IMG/VR virus record: IMGVR_UViG_3300009103_000037
Coordinates: 1 to 57,826 of that record
Source: a virus
Length of the DNA: 57,826 nt
Strand: one strand, 5' to 3'
The translations under genes were made by a program, and so were the position numbers. Below, one piece after another: positions 20,844-45,906 of this stretch. Numbering within the stretch: position 1 is the first letter of the stretch; each line of letters opens with the position of its first letter. The notes beneath the pieces were generated by a model. That model had not been told where the DNA came from, did not search any database, and saw nothing but the letters and a program-made list of their open reading frames with translations.

Positions 20844-22442
20844 CTACTCTTTATCCTCACCCGCCTCACATACTGTCACCTCTGTAGTTAACAGAGTTCC
20901 ACTTGCTGAAGCAGCATTTTGAATTGCCGATCTAACCACCTTTACCGGATCTATAATACCTCCCTCTATCATATTGGGGACAAAAACTCCTTTAAGGGCA
21001 TCAAACCCACAAGATTTATTCTTGGACGATATAATCTTCTCCATATAAGAGTGATACTCTTCTCCTGAATTAGCCAACACCTGCTTGAACGGAGCCTTGA
21101 TTGCCTTTAAAACAATGTCCACTCCAACCAATTCTTCTGTCATCATTGGTTCCTTTCTGAGAAGGTTCAAATCCTTTACACAGTGCAGAAGCGCCGCCCC
21201 GCCGCCTGGAACAATGCCCTCTTCTACCGCAGCCTTAACTGCATTTATTGCATCCTCAACTCGATCTTTCTTCTCCCTAACCTCAGTCTCAGATAAGCCT
21301 CCTATGCTCAAAATTGCAACAGCACCAGATAAAGCAGACAGACGTTGCTTTAAAGCTGCATGTTCAAATGTCTCTAGAGGTTGGTTAAGCTGAGCCTTTA
21401 TCTGCTGCACTCGTCTATCTACTGCGTCTTGCGTTCCAACTCCATCGACTATAGAGGTTGAATCTCTTGACACAATAACCCTTCTGGCTTGCCCAAGATC
21501 CTTTATAGTCAGGTTCCTTAAGCTATTATTTAATTCAGAAGTAAATAAGGTTGCTCCACATACAACCGCTATATCCTCTAACATATCTTTTCTTATGTCT
21601 CCAAAGCCAGGGGCTCTAACAGCACAAGACACTAACGCTCCACGCGCCTTATTTAGAACTAAGGTTTGTAATGCCTCACTATCAACAGTCTGTGCTACGA
21701 CAAGCAGGGATCTGCCTTCTTCAGAAATCGCCTCAAGAATAGGTAATAACTCTGATGTTGCAGATATTTTTCCATCGTATAACAAGATGTATGGCTTGTC
21801 TAGCTCACACGTTAACTTCTCTAAATTAGTCGCAAAAGTAGGGGTTATATAGCCTCTATCAAAATTGGCTCCCTCCGTATAAGAAACTGAAGTCTCAAGG
21901 CCAGTCGCTTCCTCTACGGAGATCATTCCATCATCCCCTACAGCAGAAACAACAGACCCAATAAGGTTCCCTAACTTTAGGTCATTATTTACAGAAATAA
22001 CTGCAACGCTATTTATCAACTCTTCACTGTCAACAGACTGACTTATATCGTTTAGTTTAGCAACAACAACCTCAACAGCCTTGTCTAAGCCTCTCTTTAT
22101 AAGAACAGGGTTATGTCCAGCGGAAACCATCTTAGCGCCCTCTGTGTATATAGCTTGAGCTAATACTGTGGCTGTTGTGGTCCCATCACCAGCAGCATTA
22201 TTGGTCGCACTAGCAACACTCTTAATTAATTCCGCACCCATATTTTGAAGTCTGTCATCCAGACTTATTGATCTAGCTACCGTAACACCATCTTTGGTAA
22301 TAAGTGGTGGGCCAAACCTCTTCTCAATAGCCGCATTTCTGCCTCTTGGTCCCAAGGTGGCCTTTACTGCGTTAGCTAAAATATCAAGACCTTCTTGTAA
22401 GCCTTGTCTGGCCTCAGAGCTAAATTGAACTTCTTTACCCAT
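20844..22442 (-). CDS. groEL: Group I chaperonin GroEL
   Basis: 532 residues from the ATG at 22442 (GGAG 8 nt upstream; the ATG at 22454 is inside the preceding small gene). Classical motifs are intact: A-T-L-G-P-R-G-R-N-A, D-G-V-T-V-A-R-S-I, the ATP-site G-D-G-T-T-T-A-T-V-L-A, V-E-E-G-I-V-P-G-G-G-A-A-L-L and a C-terminal G-I-I-D-P-V-K-V. The family folds proteins in a double ring. The end lacks the GGM-repeat tail of cellular GroEL. No GroES-like gene is seen in the window, so it may use a host or distant cochaperonin, or work without one as reported for some phage chaperonins. Confidence 0.96.
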   Translation of the reverse strand: MGKEVQFSSEARQGLQEGLDILANAVKATLGPRGRNAAIEKRFGPPLITKDGVTVARSISLDDRLQNMGAELIKSVASATNNAAGDGTTTATVLAQAIYTEGAKMVSAGHNPVLIKRGLDKAVEVVVAKLNDISQSVDSEELINSVAVISVNNDLKLGNLIGSVVSAVGDDGMISVEEATGLETSVSYTEGANFDRGYITPTFATNLEKLTCELDKPYILLYDGKISATSELLPILEAISEEGRSLLVVAQTVDSEALQTLVLNKARGALVSCAVRAPGFGDIRKDMLEDIAVVCGATLFTSELNNSLRNLTIKDLGQARRVIVSRDSTSIVDGVGTQDAVDRRVQQIKAQLNQPLETFEHAALKQRLSALSGAVAILSIGGLSETEVREKKDRVEDAINAVKAAVEEGIVPGGGAALLHCVKDLNLLRKEPMMTEELVGVDIVLKAIKAPFKQVLANSGEEYHSYMEKIISSKNKSCGFDALKGVFVPNMIEGGIIDPVKVVRSAIQNAASASGTLLTTEVTVCEAGEDKE

Positions 22443-22602
22443 TTGTATCTCCATTATTCATTTTCTTAAAATCAATGTTACCATCAATAATACTATTAAC
22501 TTTTGCAGCTATAATATACCCCGCAAGAAAGAGTGATAGTATCAAAAACACTTGAAATCCAAGTATTATTTTGAACTGCAAATACTTTTCCATATAAAAC
22601 AT
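22435..22602 (-). CDS. Small membrane protein overlapping the groEL start
   Basis: 55 residues, with a transmembrane stretch at about 11-31 (I-I-L-G-F-Q-V-F-L-I-L-S-L-F-L-A-G) and a polar C-terminus. Its stop overlaps the groEL start in the string ATGGGTAA, a strong sign of translational coupling, and its coding sequence supplies the groEL ribosome site. The start could be the ATG at 22602 or the one three codons later. No family recognised. Confidence 0.6.
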   Translation of the reverse strand: MFYMEKYLQFKIILGFQVFLILSLFLAGYIIAAKVNSIIDGNIDFKKMNNGDTNG

Positions 22603-22635
22603 ATTACCATTATAACGGTTAAGTTACAAGTACAT

Positions 22636-22968
22636 TTAGGTCTTTTTGGCATCTGTCAATTCTTCATCCCCATCTTTACAGGTCTTGGCATCTTCCGGCT
22701 TTGATTTCTTTGCAGCAGCCCTATCAAGTCTTTTGATTCTTCCAGAAATTCTCTCTGCTGCGAACACTATCTCGTCCTCATTCAACTCTTCAGCAAAGAA
22801 ATAAAAGATTGCCTTTCCGCCATCAGTTAAGCCCTCTTCAATCTCTGCTACCTTCTGCTTGAGTGCCGAAAGACTTATCATATCTCTCAGAAGTTCCTGT
22901 CCAGACTCAAGTACCTTTGGATCGTCTGTTTTGTCAATCATTGTTCTAAATTCATCAAGCTTATTCAT
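22636..22968 (-). CDS. Small hypothetical charged protein
   Basis: 110 residues, mostly helical (F-R-T-M-I-D-K-T-D-D, V-A-E-I-E-E-G-L), ending in a lysine- and aspartate-rich tail. AGGAG lies 6 nt before the ATG. It begins 80 nt from the divergent plus-strand gene at 23049, and that AT-rich gap must hold two promoters. No family recognised. Confidence 0.6.
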   Translation of the reverse strand: MNKLDEFRTMIDKTDDPKVLESGQELLRDMISLSALKQKVAEIEEGLTDGGKAIFYFFAEELNEDEIVFAAERISGRIKRLDRAAAKKSKPEDAKTCKDGDEELTDAKKT

Positions 22969-23048
22969 AAGAAGCTCCTATTGGTTTATGGGTTAATTTA
23001 CTACTAATATTAAAAATATTATTGAATTTTATCGTATAGGGAGAAGTT

Positions 23049-24629
23049 GTGGACATATCAAATAGAAAATCCTTGCTTATGACTATTAACAAAAATGCTC
23101 AATCATCAGTTAGAGAGCCAACCAAGGAAATAGTTAGGCAGGTTCGTGAGCCCTTCCGAACCATGACTCCCGACGACCGAATAAACAGGCTAAAGGGAAT
23201 TAGGGATGCCTTAAAATCGCCCTCTGGAAACATGACCTATTCGGTCGAACAACAACAACAGCTTAGATCATATCAAGACCTCTTTGATAATTGGGATAAT
23301 TATAAAGAATATGTAAACAAACCAATGCAAGATTTAGGTGATTGGGTTGCCGAAAAAACTGTTGTTCCTGCCGTCAAAGCTGTGATGAGCTTGGGAGAAG
23401 GAGTCAAAGAACATGGAGTTCCAGGCACACCTGACAGGGATAAAGCCATTAAAGAGCTAGAACGCTCATCAAAATATGCCTCTCTATATGACATAACAAA
23501 AAATGGAATAAACATTTCTGACCTCCAGTGCTTTGAGCAAACATACTCAGCACTTAATAATAATGAATTTCACAAGATAGCTTCTGGAAAAGTAATCGCA
23601 GAAGATATAGCCTCTGCTTTTAGAAAAGAAATTGACGCTTCTCATGCGTTATATCATCAAAAATTTTCCGAAGAATATACCAATAACTTAGACCTTGACT
23701 TAGATACATATAATAAATTTTACGAACTTGCCGTTGCTCACCATGTTCTAACTCAAGAGGGTTTCCTTAAAGATGCCAAAACTATAGACAACTTCGTCCT
23801 AAGGAATACTTCAATATGGGGCTTCAAAAAGGAAGCTGGCTGGCTCGGTGATGCCTGGAGAGCTACCAAGAGTGTGATATCAAAAGGCTTTGGGTTGATA
23901 AAGGGAATAGTCGCAAAAGGCTGGAAGTTTATTGTTACTAAGCTTCCGGTTCTTGGACTCGTATTCTCTGTACCCTTTATGATCAAAAACCTCATTGAAG
24001 CCTACCATAACGGCAAAAGAATCATATCAGAGCTGGATCTTCCGAAGTTTGGATTTGACAGAATGAAAAGCATAACCCCCCTTGGTTTAAGCCATGTTCG
24101 GGAAACATTTAAAAGCGCAGTTGATAAACATAGAAGAGATCCAGATGCCCTGAAAGAACTAATAACTATCTTTAGAACCATAGGCGCATTTTGGATTGAC
24201 ACTCTATTTACCATAACAAATGGTTTCATGGCAGTCCTTGATATTATTGCCGTAGCTGGACTCTTCTTTCCAGGTGTAGGCTGGTTAGTATCAGTAGGCG
24301 CTATGGGCGCAAACTGGCTTTTAGCCATTGGAACAGCCGGATTAGAGGTTGGCGCAGAATACTTCAAAGATCATTATTGGGATAAGGATGCCGCCTATAT
24401 GTTAGAAGAGGCTAAAAAAGCTGTTAAAGAATTATTGTCAGAAGGAACAGTTATTAAAGCCGAAGACCCTATAGTGGGACGAGGATTTGGATGGGATGAA
24501 GATGAGCCTTCAACACCAGTCTACACCCCTACTCCTGACCCTGCTCCTATCTATAATATAGGACCTAATTCTTCTGATGGATTCAAGGGCATATCACCGC
24601 CAAAGTCTGTCTCTAGGCCAACTCTTTAA
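23049..24629 (+). CDS. Large plus-strand membrane-associated protein
   Basis: 526 residues starting at GTG (GGGAG 7 nt upstream). The first ~270 residues are polar and helical. Hydrophobic segments follow at about 297-322 (V-L-G-L-V-F-S-V-P-F-M-I) and in the 385-450 region (A-V-L-D-I-I-A-V-A-G-L-F-F-P-G-V-G-W-L), which includes a glycine-rich pair. The end is proline-rich and disordered. Its strand sets it apart from its neighbours. A virion protein inserted into the host membrane during entry, or a pore-forming effector, would fit. No family recognised. Confidence 0.7.
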   Translation: MDISNRKSLLMTINKNAQSSVREPTKEIVRQVREPFRTMTPDDRINRLKGIRDALKSPSGNMTYSVEQQQQLRSYQDLFDNWDNYKEYVNKPMQDLGDWVAEKTVVPAVKAVMSLGEGVKEHGVPGTPDRDKAIKELERSSKYASLYDITKNGINISDLQCFEQTYSALNNNEFHKIASGKVIAEDIASAFRKEIDASHALYHQKFSEEYTNNLDLDLDTYNKFYELAVAHHVLTQEGFLKDAKTIDNFVLRNTSIWGFKKEAGWLGDAWRATKSVISKGFGLIKGIVAKGWKFIVTKLPVLGLVFSVPFMIKNLIEAYHNGKRIISELDLPKFGFDRMKSITPLGLSHVRETFKSAVDKHRRDPDALKELITIFRTIGAFWIDTLFTITNGFMAVLDIIAVAGLFFPGVGWLVSVGAMGANWLLAIGTAGLEVGAEYFKDHYWDKDAAYMLEEAKKAVKELLSEGTVIKAEDPIVGRGFGWDEDEPSTPVYTPTPDPAPIYNIGPNSSDGFKGISPPKSVSRPTL

Positions 24630-24856: not shown

Positions 24857-25303
24857 TCAAGCATTGTCCCTAATTAACTTAAAGATTCTGCCATATTGAG
24901 TAAATTTACCCCCGTCTTTCAAAAGATTTGCAAGAGATATAAGAAACTCTCCCTCTCCATCTCTATACTGTGGGTTAGAGGACTTTCTTAGATCCTCCAG
25001 CTTGGTCAGATCATCGCTCCATTTGGCTAAGAAATCATCTGGAGAATCACCCGTAAGTGCTGTAAAGTATCTTAAGTAATCTGAAAGAGAGGCTGCATTT
25101 ATACCAGCATCCTTGGACCACTTAGCGTCATCTTCATTAATAGTTTTTGACTTAGACCCATAAGACATAACAAACGGTGTTTCCAGCCTTCTCTTATCCA
25201 TAGGTATCCAGCCGAAGGAAACCTCGGTATCTGAGGTACGCTCTTCGTGATATGCAAAACAACTCTTTATCTTAAACTTCTTTGCTATTTCATCTTTACT
25301 CAT
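24857..25303 (-). CDS. Hypothetical protein next to glutamine synthetase
   Basis: 148 residues, mixed alpha/beta. The start overlaps the glutamine synthetase end by 8 nt, so the pair is translationally coupled. Residues like L-S-D-Y-L-R-Y-F-T-A-L-T-G-D-S and F-L-I-S-L-A-N-L-L show a compact helical domain. No family recognised. A role as glutamine synthetase partner or regulator is only suggested by position. Confidence 0.6.
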   Translation of the reverse strand: MSKDEIAKKFKIKSCFAYHEERTSDTEVSFGWIPMDKRRLETPFVMSYGSKSKTINEDDAKWSKDAGINAASLSDYLRYFTALTGDSPDDFLAKWSDDLTKLEDLRKSSNPQYRDGEGEFLISLANLLKDGGKFTQYGRIFKLIRDNA

Positions 25304-26360
25304 CTGTCTCTACTCCTTCTCCTACCGCCCCAAGGAGGTACGCAGCAACTTTATAAGGATCTGCATTAGCGTTTGGTCTGCGATCCTCAAAGTACCCTCT
25401 TCCAGACTTCTCTACATGCCAGGGGATTCTTACCGAAGCGCCTCTGTCTGAAACTCCATAGCTAAACTCTCCTAGCTTACATGTTTCGTGATTACCAGTA
25501 AGTCGTCTTTCTAAGCCCTCTCCATAAACATTCGGAATATTAGACAGATTTTCTTGGCTACCTAGCTTATTACAAGCGTCCTTAATACAGTCAAGACCTC
25601 CTTCTTCTCTCATGTCCTTCGTTGAGAAGTTGGCGTGCATACCGCTTCCATTCCAATCACCAGTAATAGGCTTAGGATCAAGCTCTACTTTGACTCCCCT
25701 TGATTCAGCAATTCTGTTTAAAAGGAACCTAGAAACCCAAAGATGATCGCATGTAGCTACGGCATTAATACCCGGCCCTCCAACCTGATACTCCCACTGA
25801 CCCAAGGCCACCTCTGCATTTACTCCTGCAATAGATAGCCCTGAACCTAAACAGGCTGTTAGATGAAGCTCTGATATAGATCTTCCCTCAACTGTACCAG
25901 CACCAACGCCGCAATAATATGGACCTTGAGGGCCAGGATCTTTAGTTTCCTCCCAACCCAAGGGGCGATTTGTTTCAGAGTTAATTAAAAAATACTCTTG
26001 CTCAAACCCCAAGAAAGGCTCAGAATTGCCATGAGCTATCATGGCATCAATCATCCTCGCTCTAGAGTTCGATGAATGAGGGGTTAAATCCTCGTTCAAA
26101 ACATCGCATAACACCAAGATTCCATTCTGCCTATTAGAATCAACGCAAGCAAACACAGGCCTTAGAACACAATCAGAAGACTCTGTAGTGGCCTGTCCTG
26201 TACTGCTTCCGTCAAAACTCCATACCGGAATATCTGCAAGGCTTAACTTCCAATCTTCTTCCTCAGACTGAATATTAAGCACTCTTGTCTTTGATCTAAG
26301 TTGAGGGGTTTTTCCACCATCCAACCAAATATACTCACACTTCAATGTAGCTGCACTCAT
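25296..26360 (-). CDS. Type II (eukaryote-type) glutamine synthetase
   Basis: 354 residues, the length of GSII enzymes (about 350-370) rather than the 440-470 of bacterial GSI. All signature blocks are present: W-S-F-D-G-S-S-T-G-Q-A, F-L-G-F-E-Q-E-Y-F (metal ligands), D-W-N-G-S-G-M-H-A-N, L-T-G-N-H-E-T, V-S-D-R-G-A-S-V-R-I-P and G-Y-F-E-D-R-R-P-N-A-N-A-D-P-Y. The enzyme makes glutamine from glutamate, ammonia and ATP. The GSI adenylation site is absent by family. AGGAG precedes the ATG. Finding this in a phage is striking; it would raise glutamine for nucleotide synthesis. Confidence 0.95.
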   Translation of the reverse strand: MSAATLKCEYIWLDGGKTPQLRSKTRVLNIQSEEEDWKLSLADIPVWSFDGSSTGQATTESSDCVLRPVFACVDSNRQNGILVLCDVLNEDLTPHSSNSRARMIDAMIAHGNSEPFLGFEQEYFLINSETNRPLGWEETKDPGPQGPYYCGVGAGTVEGRSISELHLTACLGSGLSIAGVNAEVALGQWEYQVGGPGINAVATCDHLWVSRFLLNRIAESRGVKVELDPKPITGDWNGSGMHANFSTKDMREEGGLDCIKDACNKLGSQENLSNIPNVYGEGLERRLTGNHETCKLGEFSYGVSDRGASVRIPWHVEKSGRGYFEDRRPNANADPYKVAAYLLGAVGEGVETDE

Positions 26361-28401: not shown

Positions 28402-29022
28402 TCAAATAATGTCAATAGAATTTTCAAACATAAGTTTAACTTTTTTCTTTACTACCTTATGAATACCTGGGTTGATTGTTAAAACATTTTCCATTAACTT
28501 ATGTCGAATAAGATTTCGCATGTAAGCAACGTCGGTATTGCTAGGGTCCTCTAGGTATGGAACATCCTTTCTAGAGCACCAATCAGTCAAAGTCAGCTTA
28601 CGAGTTGCCAAGAATGGTCTGATAAAGTTATCCCTGCTATAAGGAATGAGCATTGGGTTTCCATGAATAGATGTAAATAGCCATGTCTCAACTGCATCAT
28701 CTAAGTGATGGCAGGTAATAATCTTTCTGTCTAAGAAGTTAGAGAAGAAGGCATATCTTTCGTTTCTCCAATACTCTTCTTTCGATTCGCCAGAAGCCTT
28801 CTCTCTCGTTACTGCTCCAACTTCAAGCTGAATCCCTCTGCTTTCACAGAAGCTTCTAACAAAAGTTTCTGCTTTAGATGAAAATGGAGTGCCATGATTA
28901 AAGTGGAGGACGAGCAAATCTCTATTGCTCTTGCTGATGAAGTCTAGCACAGCCATGCTATCAGAGCCTCCAGATACAGCTATAGCTACCTTTTTCGGAA
29001 TACTTCCTAAAACATTGATCAT
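28402..29022 (-). CDS. tilS: tRNA(Ile)-lysidine synthase TilS-like
   Basis: 206 residues. The PP-loop S-G-G-S-D-S-M-A is at 18-25, H-H-L-D-D-A-V-E-T at about 105-113, and Y-M-R-N-L-I-R-H-K-L near the end, all as in TilS. It is shorter than bacterial TilS (about 430) and keeps only the N-terminal catalytic domain plus a short extension. TilS changes C34 of a CAU tRNA to lysidine so that it reads AUA as Ile. Two CAU tRNAs at 44.8 and 45.8 kb are candidate substrates. It is driven by the motif at 29058. Confidence 0.85.
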   Translation of the reverse strand: MINVLGSIPKKVAIAVSGGSDSMAVLDFISKSNRDLLVLHFNHGTPFSSKAETFVRSFCESRGIQLEVGAVTREKASGESKEEYWRNERYAFFSNFLDRKIITCHHLDDAVETWLFTSIHGNPMLIPYSRDNFIRPFLATRKLTLTDWCSRKDVPYLEDPSNTDVAYMRNLIRHKLMENVLTINPGIHKVVKKKVKLMFENSIDII

Positions 29023-31860: not shown

Positions 31861-32871
31861 TTAGATGTATATATGAGACATAGGCGGTGGAAGAACCTTC
31901 TCTTTATCAAGATACTCTTTTATTCCGTCTAAGTTTTTTCTACCTAGCAAGAAGAGTGCATAGTCACCCCTAAATGTTTTCATTTTTGTAAAATGTTTAA
32001 AGCATAACTCAAATGATCTTACCATGTCTTTGAAGTCGCTTCCAGAAAGCAGCACTTTGCCGTAAACATCATTTACAAGGGTTACTTTTTCTTGATACTC
32101 AGAGTAATCGATAGTATCTGTATCATTATATATCTGATATATAAGCTCAGATAGGGCAGGGGAAAAGTCTAGCAAATATCTCTTGGAGTATTTGAAAGCT
32201 CTTAGTCCTGCGTATATTCTCTGAGACATAGAGCGATCACCCATGTAGTTTGTCGGATTATTAATTCTTAGCTTAAAATCATCAAAGGCAGAATCTAACG
32301 CAGAGTCATAATAAAGAGTGCCATCGTGATAGGCAACGCAGCAATTTATGAAATCAAAAGTTTCAAACAAACTCTCTATTGAAGACACCGGCTTCTTTAT
32401 GGCCTGGAAAACAAAAGAGTGCGGCGAAGATCCGTCTAATTGTCCATATCTAGGAGTCTTTTCTCGATGAAAACTATTAGCCCACTTGCTAGTCTTAACA
32501 ACTCTATAATCAGATCCAAGTGGAGAAGACAGACTCGTAGCCCCAATAGTTTCTTTTAAGAGCGTATCAAGGTCTGACAACATCCATGAGCCATACCCGT
32601 CAGAGTGTAACGGACTATCCTCAAAGAACCAAGCATCTATATCTCCAAACTTATCGAGCTTGTCCTCGAAGACAACATTTCTAGCCCCACTGAAAGAAGC
32701 GGCTCTTTCAAGTTGTTTCCACTTTGAAGCTGAATCATAAAGCCGATAAGCCCTATATACAGATAGCATAGAGCCTCCTGCTAAAAGAGGTTTTAACTGC
32801 ATGAGAGCATCATCTTTTACGATGTGGTTTACAAGCCAATCAATTCGCTTATCTGTAATTGTCTTTATCAT
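31861..32871 (-). CDS. Nucleotidyltransferase-like protein
   Basis: 336 residues. The N-terminal half contains L-L-A-G-G-S-M-L-S-V-Y-R-A-Y and, about 45 residues later, F-G-D-I-D-A-W-F-F, which is the G-G-S ... D-x-D pattern of the polymerase-beta-like nucleotidyltransferase fold. The middle, F-D-F-I-N-C-C-V-A-Y and Y-Y-D-S-A-L-D-D, matches other phage members I have seen described only as NTase-like. It could modify tRNA, protein or an antibiotic-like substrate. It overlaps the neighbouring HEAT-like gene by 4 nt. Confidence 0.65.
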   Translation of the reverse strand: MIKTITDKRIDWLVNHIVKDDALMQLKPLLAGGSMLSVYRAYRLYDSASKWKQLERAASFSGARNVVFEDKLDKFGDIDAWFFEDSPLHSDGYGSWMLSDLDTLLKETIGATSLSSPLGSDYRVVKTSKWANSFHREKTPRYGQLDGSSPHSFVFQAIKKPVSSIESLFETFDFINCCVAYHDGTLYYDSALDSAFDDFKLRINNPTNYMGDRSMSQRIYAGLRAFKYSKRYLLDFSPALSELIYQIYNDTDTIDYSEYQEKVTLVNDVYGKVLLSGSDFKDMVRSFELCFKHFTKMKTFRGDYALFLLGRKNLDGIKEYLDKEKVLPPPMSHIYI

Positions 32872-33715: not shown

Positions 33716-34360
33716 TTACTTGTCTTCTTCCCATCTCTTTCTGCAAATTTCGCCCCAATTTTTATGGCAATTATCACAAAGTGTATTGATCCAGCTGCCG
33801 CCCCTTTCTTCTCCTGGGCTTCCACATTCTTCACAGGTTTTATACGAAAGCTCTTCGGCCTTTTGTATAAGGCTGTAAATTTCGTCGTTCCCACAAGTCA
33901 TATAGAATCTTAGTCCACCATACTTTTCCTTTACCTGTGTTGCCTTCGGGTAAGACCCGCTGTATTCATCACAGAAGCAAGCGTAATAGTTCCCAGGTGG
34001 CTTATCATTGGATTCTAGGTCTTCGTGAATGGACAGACACCTTCCTGGGCTTCGTGTCTTACTGCCGTAGTGACGCTCCTTAGAGCACCCACATTTGGAG
34101 CAAGAGAGATTAGGGTTGTCGCTAACTATACCCTTAATGATGGGCTCAAGCTTTGAAGATAAATCCCAAATTATATCAAACCAGCCATCGCTACAGGTAA
34201 AGCCCCAACACATGCAGGTTGATTGCATTGATGCCTGTCTATCACTATAAAGAAGTGGAAAACTCTCAACCAGCTTCTTATCTAATTCTTCATTCACTCT
34301 TAGCTCCCAAGGTGTAAAGCGGTAAGCCCCAACCAACTTACCTGTTGCTAAGCAACCCAC
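33716..34360 (-). CDS. Cysteine-rich zinc-binding protein
   Basis: 214 residues with many Cys: C-M-C-W-G-F-T-C, C-S-K-C-G-C, C-E-E-C-G-S-P-G and C-D-N-C-H, enough for two or three zinc knuckles. The segment V-K-E-K-Y-G-G-L-R-F-Y, then the Cys pairs, is a pattern seen in phage and bacterial proteins of unknown role. The start is uncertain: a GTG at 34360 opens the frame, but no strong ribosome site is visible, and a TTG follows at 34336. Probably a nucleic-acid-binding protein. Confidence 0.6.
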   Translation of the reverse strand: MGCLATGKLVGAYRFTPWELRVNEELDKKLVESFPLLYSDRQASMQSTCMCWGFTCSDGWFDIIWDLSSKLEPIIKGIVSDNPNLSCSKCGCSKERHYGSKTRSPGRCLSIHEDLESNDKPPGNYYACFCDEYSGSYPKATQVKEKYGGLRFYMTCGNDEIYSLIQKAEELSYKTCEECGSPGEERGGSWINTLCDNCHKNWGEICRKRWEEDK

Positions 34361-34685: not shown

Positions 34686-35057
34686 TGGTGGAGGCGGCGG
34701 GAGTCGAACCCGCGTCCAAAATAAATCATTCTTCAAGTCATTCACAAGCTTGTCTGATGTATTCCCACATCAGCAAGGTAGCTACATTAAAACCCTTTTC
34801 TTATGTAGCCTCAGAAATCCACTCATTAAAATGAGGTATCCATCTTGATTTTTTATTTTCGCAGGATCTCTACCTGTTATCTAACATTGGGTAACAAGGT
34901 TGTTAGAAACCCAGACAACTAAGCTGCTAAAGCAAATTCGTTGTAGTAATAATTGTCATTGGCAATTATAAGTTTTGCAACAAGTTTTAAGCCATTTGTT
35001 ACCGTAGACTGCTTGCACTATCCGCTATCATTACCCTGTCGATACCATTTCGCCCCC
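34686..35057 (-). ncRNA. ssrA: Transfer-messenger RNA (tmRNA)
   Basis: 372 nt. The 5' end GGGGGCG pairs with the 3' CGCCTCC, with a G3:U70 wobble as alanyl-tRNA synthetase requires; discriminator A and CCA are encoded. GGACGCGGGTTCGACTCC forms the T arm and GAAATGGTATCGACAGGG the D-loop region. The tag frame at 34963-34919 reads ANDNYYYNEFALAA then TAG; the ALAA ending is the ClpXP-type degradation signal. tmRNA frees stalled ribosomes and tags the unfinished protein. No SmpB gene is in the window. A promoter motif lies 23 nt upstream. Confidence 0.95.
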
Positions 35058-35079: not shown

Positions 35080-35095
35080 ATATAATTGATGCAGA
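35080..35095 (-). promoter_or_regulatory. Phage promoter motif upstream of tmRNA
   Basis: Minus-strand TCTGCATCAATTATAT, with two changes from consensus, preceded by TATTATTATTTTT. It lies 23 nt before the mature tmRNA 5' end, the right distance if TTATAT is a -10 element. Confidence 0.65.
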
Positions 35096-35120
35096 AAAAA
35101 TAATAATAAAATATTATACT

Positions 35121-35564
35121 CTAGTTAGAGAGGCTATATATGCAGTAGCTACTGTTCTCTTTAACGACATTTAAGTTTAAAAACACACTTCTCTGATAGC
35201 CTCGTGATGTCTTTCCATCTTTCTTTACATCTCTCCTAACAGTGATAAAGGCTTGGCCTCCCCTTTTTAGTAAGGACTTTATAGATCCTAATATCTCATC
35301 TTCTGCTTCTGCGCTTACAACATTTAAAACATAAGTGCATAACACAGTGTCAAAGCCCATTCCCGTAAGATCTGTGGGCCTCCAGTATGGATCGTAAGCC
35401 TCAGCGGTATATCCGGCTTTTTTAAGGTGATTAAAGTCAGCTGACTTTCCACAGCCATAATCAAGTATAGCTCCCCTCAAGTAGCCTTTGTCCTGCAAAT
35501 ATCTAAGTGGCACTGAGGCTTTCTTTCTAGAAATAGCTGTGTTATAACTTTGTACATTTTGCAT
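35121..35564 (-). CDS. SAM-dependent methyltransferase, class I-like
   Basis: 147 residues. Motif I is I-L-D-Y-G-C-G-K-S at about 33-41, motif II/IV is A-E-A-Y-D-P-Y and F-D-T-V-L-C-T-Y-V-L-N, followed by S-L-L-K-R-G-G-Q-A-F-I-T-V-R. This is a Rossmann methyltransferase shortened at both ends. The N-terminal N-T-A-I-S-R-K-K-A-S-V-P resembles DNA phosphorothioate-associated or 'TehB-like' proteins in which the enzyme is small; the substrate is unclear. GGAG precedes the ATG. It ends 26 nt before the promoter of the tmRNA. Confidence 0.75.
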   Translation of the reverse strand: MQNVQSYNTAISRKKASVPLRYLQDKGYLRGAILDYGCGKSADFNHLKKAGYTAEAYDPYWRPTDLTGMGFDTVLCTYVLNVVSAEAEDEILGSIKSLLKRGGQAFITVRRDVKKDGKTSRGYQRSVFLNLNVVKENSSYCIYSLSN

Positions 35565-36271: not shown

Positions 36272-37120
36272 CTATCTATATTCCTCTATTCCATAGTGAA
36301 CTCTCAGTCTTTTTCTAAGCCTATCTATCGCCCTTATTTCGACCCTTCTAACCCACTCTCTAGAAATATTCAGCTCTCCCTCTAAATCCCTGAGCGTCTT
36401 TGGCTCTTCTGTTAAAAACCTATTCTTTATAATCTCTCTTTCAAGCTCTGGCATTGTAGACATTATTTCATATATAGCTGAAGTGAGGCTGTATAATTCA
36501 TCAGCATCCTCATATTCTCTGTGGGGGCTAACTGGATCTTGAAGCAGGTCAACCTTGAGGGTACTCCCGTCTTCCCCGACCTTAATAGGAGTATCTAGTC
36601 TAACGTCAGATCCTTTTAAGGAAGCCATCATTTGTCGCAAAGAGTCCTTCTTTACAGAAAGGGTGCTTGCTATATAGTTTAGCTTATCCTCGCCAGACAG
36701 CCCGCTTTCTTCTGCCTCTCTTAAAGATTTAGATAAATTAGAAAATAAAGTTCTATCATCTCTGGTAGTGCCCATTTTGACAACTGATTTATAATCCATG
36801 ATATATCTCTTCATATTTGCTTTAACCCACCACATAGCATAAGTCAAGAAAGTCACCTCTTGAGTTGGGTCAAACATGCTTGCTGCTTTAAGTAACCCGG
36901 CGATACCTTCCTGCATCAAGTCTTCATAAGATATATAATAATTCTTAGCCTTTAACCTAAAGGCTTCTTTCGATACAATTTTCATATTAGATAATACAAG
37001 TTGGTCCAAGGCCAGCTTATTAGAATTATCCTGCCACTTCTTTACCAGATCAAGCTGCACACTTGCAGGTAGAACAGGGTTATCTTTTATAATGTTTTTT
37101 ATTAAATCCATCGACTGCAT
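36272..37120 (-). CDS. Sigma-70 family sigma factor
   Basis: 282 residues from the ATG at 37120 (AAAGGAG 5 nt upstream). Region 2 is clear: Y-E-D-L-M-Q-E-G-I-A-G-L-L-K-A, F-D-P-T-Q-E-V-T-F-L-T-Y-A-M-W-W-V, and region 2.4/3 I-M-D-Y-K-S-V-V-K. Region 4 is M-P-E-L-E-R-E-I-I-K-N-R-F-L then a helix-turn-helix I-S-R-E-W-V-R-R-V-E-I-R-A. Region 1.1 is absent, as in RpoH-like alternative sigmas. Phage sigma factors redirect host polymerase to phage promoters; the repeated motif in this window is the obvious candidate target. Confidence 0.92.
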   Translation of the reverse strand: MQSMDLIKNIIKDNPVLPASVQLDLVKKWQDNSNKLALDQLVLSNMKIVSKEAFRLKAKNYYISYEDLMQEGIAGLLKAASMFDPTQEVTFLTYAMWWVKANMKRYIMDYKSVVKMGTTRDDRTLFSNLSKSLREAEESGLSGEDKLNYIASTLSVKKDSLRQMMASLKGSDVRLDTPIKVGEDGSTLKVDLLQDPVSPHREYEDADELYSLTSAIYEIMSTMPELEREIIKNRFLTEEPKTLRDLEGELNISREWVRRVEIRAIDRLRKRLRVHYGIEEYR

Positions 37121-37130
37121 ACAATCTCCT

Positions 37131-37328
37131 TTACCATTCATCGCGTTGTTTGTACAAACGCTTTTTTGATCGTCTTATTTTAGAGTTCTTATTTTGAATT
37201 TCACCAATATCATACCACTCGTCCCATTCGTCCTCTTTGGGGTCGTAAGCAATATCTTGAGAACGCTCCTTGTTCTCATTTGTATTGCGATTACAACTGT
37301 CCCTATCGTTCTTCTCCGAAGAATCCAT
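37131..37328 (-). CDS. Small highly charged protein
   Basis: 65 residues: Asn/Arg/Glu/Asp-rich with R-R-S-K-K-R-L-Y-K-Q-R near the end and W-D-E-W-Y-D-I in the middle. It is probably disordered. It overlaps the sigma factor frame only in the untranslated start region and is immediately upstream of it, so it may modulate sigma translation. No family recognised. Confidence 0.5.
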   Translation of the reverse strand: MDSSEKNDRDSCNRNTNENKERSQDIAYDPKEDEWDEWYDIGEIQNKNSKIRRSKKRLYKQRDEW

Positions 37329-44774: not shown

Positions 44775-44852
44775 TGGTCGGCTGACCGAGACTCGAACTC
44801 GGAACCCTCTGTTTATGAGACAGACGCTCTAACCTGATTGAGCTATCAGCCG
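44775..44852 (-). tRNA. tRNA with CAU anticodon (Met or Ile2)
   Basis: 78 nt with CCA. Acceptor CGGCTGA/TCAGCCG is fully paired (C1-G72), the D-arm is normal, the anticodon stem-loop is TCTGT-CTCATAA-ACAGA, and the T arm is CGAGTTCGAGTCTCG. CAU means Met unless C34 is modified to lysidine by TilS. The acceptor has C4-G69, favoured by TilS, but T5-A68, so identity is open. Confidence 0.9.
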
Positions 44853-45828: not shown

Positions 45829-45906
45829 TGGTAGGGCTAGTAGGACTCGAACCTACAACCGTTCCGTTATGAGCGGAAAGCTCTAACCAGATTGAGCTAT
45901 AGCCCC
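45829..45906 (-). tRNA. tRNA with CAU anticodon (Ile2 or Met)
   Basis: 78 nt with CCA. Acceptor GGGGCTA/TAGCCCT has a G1:U72 wobble, the anticodon stem-loop is TTCCG-CTCATAA-CGGAA, and the T arm is GTAGGTTCGAGTCCTAC. GGGGCTATAGCTC is the typical start of tRNA-Ile(CAU). With TilS encoded at 28.4 kb this is the better candidate for the AUA-decoding tRNA, but the identity is inferred. Confidence 0.9.

Follow-up and report, generated by a model that had tools for sequence, protein, structure and literature searches.

The RNA known as tmRNA releases ribosomes that have become stuck and marks the incomplete protein for degradation. Viral tmRNAs are already known as a general kind: in 2021, 402 of 18,146 phage genomes (about 2%) contained one (PMC9004378), Bacillus phage G and mycobacteriophages carry ssrA (PMC4131195), and huge phages have been reported with both tmRNA and SmpB (PMC7162821). 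An earlier note on the DNA studied here, made from the sequence alone, called tmRNA rare in phages, a statement which needs to be qualified in view of these counts and of the huge-phage cases.

The gene described below adds a member to this known class. It is located in a window of 57,826 bases (the whole stretch of DNA that was analysed), which is an IMG/VR metagenome virus record and a fragment of a larger phage. Bacterial one-piece ssrA (family RF00023) resembles it in its tRNA-like domain with the G3:U pair, CCA, resume codon, ALAA-ending frame and helices, but the present gene is phage-encoded, has a phage neighbourhood and a phage motif, and is separate from the bacterial tmRNAs that we sampled (chosen by their tag). 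The tmRNAs of phage G, Bxz1, Wildcat and other mycobacteriophages (PMC4131195) are likewise complete and phage-borne, and are set apart by their unrelated phage lineage rather than by sequence comparison. Huge phages (PMC7162821) provide another case of tmRNA in large uncultured phages, although theirs comes with SmpB, which was not found in the present phage. Finally, OM43 phage Melnitz (PMC9004378) has a complete tmRNA close to a phage promoter, but that tmRNA is two-piece, with a glutamine riboswitch, whereas the tmRNA of the window is one-piece, and the window contains no riboswitch match at or above a family cut-off. The locus offers a complete tmRNA, kept by selection, in a group of uncultured large phages with no close cultured relative.

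The tmRNA gene and its surroundings

ARAGORN detects exactly one tmRNA in the whole window, and the RF00023 covariance model matches it from position 1 to 374 of 374 (E 4e-48), well over the gathering score of 47. Its parts are as follows.

34686..35057, minus strand: one-piece tmRNA gene, 372 nt (ARAGORN; RF00023, 124.2 bits; 13 pairs changed on both sides among five phages)
35051..35057, minus strand: acceptor stem, 5' side, GGGGGCG, pairing with 34690-34696
34690..34696, minus strand: acceptor stem, 3' side, CGCCUCC, pairing with 35051-35057
34697..34713, minus strand: T arm, with changes on both sides at two pairs
34686..34688, minus strand: encoded CCA end (read from the sequence; the gene terminus is ACCA)

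The earlier note had described a complete 372-nt tmRNA at these very coordinates, with the G3:U70 alanine identity pair and an encoded CCA, and had proposed a covariance-model search; the search was run and all of these features are there. Single-sequence folding without pseudoknots yields a modest z-score of -2.1, as is expected when an RNA has pseudoknots. We take the gene to be a genuine and probably working phage tmRNA of a known kind.

Three neighbouring genes serve to compare the locus between phages.

36272..37141, minus strand: phage sigma factor, upstream anchor (PF04542, PF04545; phrog_351)
35121..35564, minus strand: methyltransferase-like gene directly upstream (PF13489), neighbour of the tmRNA in the related record G017 and present at the empty site of records G003 and G005
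31861..32871, minus strand: downstream gene with no assigned function, whose homologues follow the tmRNA in records G024 and G017 and directly follow the methyltransferase in G003 and G005

The window has two close relatives, G001 (128,565 bases; about 48 kb aligned at 83% nucleotide identity) and G002 (121,518 bases; about 40 kb aligned at 80%), both of which carry the tmRNA in the same position relative to the sigma factor gene. The former encodes a terminase, a portal protein, UvsX, a DNA polymerase and GroEL. Even the nearest cultured phages share less than 60% identity in terminase, polymerase and sigma factor, and they point to no host. When the locus was compared at the DNA level with 50,697 phage records, it gave only a 36-base match in the T arm. 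As the window comes from a metagenome record, one could imagine a bacterial ssrA fused to a phage contig during assembly or binning, but the same tmRNA, with the same phage genes on either side, occurs in three records with different sample identifiers, which refutes this explanation and leaves it a negligible probability.

Conservation and compensatory changes

In the two close relatives, the tmRNA is 94.6% and 96.8% identical to that of the window, whereas six neighbouring coding genes reach 77-86% and the promoter and leader region, as far as it aligns, 89-91%. In an alignment of five phages (the window, G001, G002, and the more distant G021 and G024), the G3:U pair of the acceptor stem and the CCA end are always retained and standard pairs fill 96.9% of the cells over 64 hand-drawn pairs, a percentage favoured by the fact that the helices were drawn on the window sequence. 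The number of pairs changed on both sides, which is not favoured in this way, is 13; none of 500 shuffles gave as many, and slid versions gave 0 or 1. The drawing partly covers PK1 and PK2 and leaves out the later pseudoknots. These comparisons show that the tmRNA is kept by selection.

A rival explanation is that the gene is a functionless passenger, i.e. a host ssrA picked up through imprecise excision or the remnant of an attachment site. Such an origin has some plausibility in general, as ssrA is often an integration site and prophages hold fragments of it (PMC9004378). For the present gene we regard it as extremely unlikely: the gene is full-length instead of a 3' fragment, it is more conserved than the flanking genes and shows compensatory changes, its locus is conserved in several phages, and a search for tyrosine integrases (PF00589) found no match in 8 records.

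Bacterial genomes were also searched for tags starting with AND[ND]Y, which yielded 23 loci spread over many phyla. In a quick tree, the bacterial tmRNAs that could be used (22) are separate from the phage tmRNAs, although this set, being picked by tag, is biased and can neither rule out a bacterial source nor point to the host. When the DNA of six genomes with AND[ND]Y tags was searched, it was mainly the last 32 bases that matched.

The tag reading frame

34919..34963, minus strand: tag frame ANDNYYYNEFALAA followed by a stop, with resume codon GCC (ARAGORN; same frame in G001, G002, G021 and G024)

Beginning with GCC at 34963 and closed by TAG at 34919, the frame encodes 14 residues, and the tag is exactly as read in the earlier note. 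The same frame is present in the other four phages, and the five tags have in common an AN-N-Y-Y start and the ALAA end that the note had pointed out. The same note held the tag to be unusual for its three consecutive tyrosines. These do exist in the window, as in G001 and G021, but the middle residues are YEY in G002 and YHY in G024, so that the claim of a meaningfully unusual tag finds no support. Between the two shared tyrosines, the residue can be Y, E or H. The run of three tyrosines is therefore not conserved and is not the feature that selection keeps, and in its shared parts the tag is ordinary, with a start, a length and an end typical of tmRNA.

These data also bear on whether the RNA could be a decoy, whose tRNA-like domain would titrate SmpB and inhibit trans-translation in the host. 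The tmRNA of phage DS6A corresponds roughly to the tRNA-like domain alone, and inhibition of tmRNA has been described for a molecule resembling it (PMC4131195). However, the close relatives keep the whole gene, the tag frame and ALAA, none of which a decoy needs, and we consider this role very unlikely here.

A promoter-like motif and the probable role of the tmRNA

35080..35097, minus strand: promoter-like motif TTTCTGCATCAATTATAT (7 window copies, 0 expected; kept in G001 and G002)

Allowing at most one mismatch, the window has 7 copies of the motif TTTCTnCATCrrTTATAT, whereas shuffles gave an expectation of 0.00. This enrichment is descriptive and not an independent test, because the motif was first defined on the very genomes examined here. 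The copy at 35097-35080 (minus strand) is exact, and 22 bases separate its end from the downstream tmRNA. In G001, many copies are located at 115-128 kb, mostly a short distance upstream of start codons. The phage promoter attributed to the tmRNA in the earlier note can therefore be retained as a motif which sits before the gene and is used elsewhere in the phage; its role as a promoter read by a sigma factor is putative. The tmRNA of G024 is preceded, at a similar distance, by a degenerate version of the motif, TTCTGCCTGGGTTATA; inspection by eye revealed no such upstream motif for the other tmRNAs of the clade, and a scan for the sigma-70 consensus found no excess of promoters around the tmRNA gene. 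A second repeated motif, GGGCAAwAGnTTTACA, occurs in the window at 1535, 5475, 56790 and 57460 (minus strand) and many times in G001, mainly at 113-128 kb. A short GC-rich inverted repeat often comes before it, and in G001 it is sometimes located just ahead of the promoter-like motif.

Consistent with the earlier statement that the window lacks SmpB, no match to this protein (PF01668) was obtained in the window or in 12 related records, control bacteria being positive, although all these records are linear and perhaps incomplete, and the gene may lie in missing parts. As no SmpB was found, the phage tmRNA would depend on that of the host.

We think it likely that the gene is a functional phage-encoded tmRNA which carries out trans-translation with host partners, because it combines a complete tRNA-like domain, a tag frame, compensatory changes in helices, conservation above that of its neighbours, a conserved locus and a promoter-like motif. 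The phage would transcribe the tmRNA on its own timing, host AlaRS would charge it through the G3:U pair, and host SmpB and EF-Tu would deliver it to ribosomes that have come to a halt on broken mRNA; the ribosome would then append ANDNYYYNEFALAA and be reused, while host ClpXP would destroy the product. The likeliest benefit would be extra rescue capacity while mRNA is being cut during infection. Both roles suggested in the earlier note, rescue of ribosomes stalled on cut host transcripts and the steering of peptides to proteolysis, are plausible. It has been proposed for Melnitz (PMC9004378) that the tmRNA mainly marks nascent proteins, especially those of the host, for proteolysis and amino-acid recycling, rescue being secondary. 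A promoter-like motif belonging to the tmRNA fits such a role too, but we see nothing in the sequence that would confer selectivity for host messages, and we judge it improbable as the main function.

Carriers and empty sites in the wider polymerase clade

With the DNA polymerase of G001 as query, 48 loci were retrieved, of which about 45 are clear homologues; the contigs reach 395 kb. Seven further records contain a tmRNA over the RF00023 cut-off (G021, G024, G017, G031, G032, G039 and G043), among which G031, G032 and G039 have identical polymerases and represent one lineage. In G017 and G024, the tmRNA has the sigma factor on one side and the homologue of 31861-32871 on the other, and in G017 the methyltransferase adjoins it; in G021 the tmRNA is followed by a homologue (70% identical) of window gene 33716-34360. 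G003 and G005 have the sigma factor, the methyltransferase and the 31861-32871 homologue in succession but no tmRNA, with 39 and 16 bases, respectively, between the last two matches. As these two relatives keep the gene order and lack the tmRNA, some members of the group can do without it. Weak RF00023 matches in these two records are not tmRNAs, the strongest (in G005) being a tRNA-Ala.

When the carriers (9 rows) are placed on a quick tree of the polymerase, 7 changes are required. This is no better than the shuffles, 104 of 500 being as low, and the absence of tmRNA means little in this tree, whose contigs are mostly fragments. Beyond the three close relatives, the nearest tmRNA is that of G021, which is 88% identical over aligned bases although the G021 polymerase reaches only 60% identity, a discrepancy that might be accounted for by transfer between phages.

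The tags seen in the clade are ANDNYYYNEFALAA, ANDNYEYNEFALAA, ANNNYYYSNVALAA (G021), ANNNYHYNSVALAA (G024), ANNNNHFYAAALAA (G017), DDYSFVYANAGRGFGAPVVAYA (G031, G032 and G039) and probably AELKLAA. The last one concerns G043, for which the tag given by ARAGORN, VKVVIKKSIAELKLAA, is probably too long, alignment with the others leading to a GCT start and AELKLAA. Tentatively, and with more doubt than confidence, the tmRNA of the clade might be seen as a tunable element owned by the phages, remaining close to a single locus as the tag changes from one phage to the next, perhaps so as to fit the protease of each host or to give tagged proteins a fate other than the one the host would give them. 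The empty sites of G003 and G005, together with the different tags carried in or close to a single place, allow carriers and non-carriers to be compared, which makes it easier to test why phages carry tmRNA.

Several clade members depart from the window in other respects. The tag of G032, G039 and G031 (L150, L151 and L152), phages of up to 395 kb, has 22 residues and ends in AYA instead of ALAA. The tmRNAs of G043 (L148, 1501-1865) and G017 (L149, 1501-1904) end in ACTA and ACCT, not ACCA, and their CCA may be added or repaired post-transcriptionally. One-piece tmRNAs were also observed in 41 other viral contigs (L008-L048), most of their tags being of the ANNN.HF...RLAA type and ending in RLAA.

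Other genes of the window

Gene 28402-29022 (minus strand) scores 123.2 bits with TIGR02432 (cut-off 93.6), which marks it as having a TilS-type tRNA(Ile)-lysidine synthetase domain. The window also contains two tRNA genes with a CAU anticodon (44775-44852 and 45829-45906, minus strand), one of which could be a tRNA-Ile2 requiring lysidine. There are two GroEL paralogues, one in the window (20844-22454, minus strand), which matches the GroEL equivalog model, and one in G001 (21719-23377); G002 has homologues of both at different places, the second being about 37% identical to the first. Finally, the product of 25296-26360 (minus strand) is glutamine-synthetase-like and nearest to GlnII, its NF041605 score of 410.7 bits being under the cut-off of 500.
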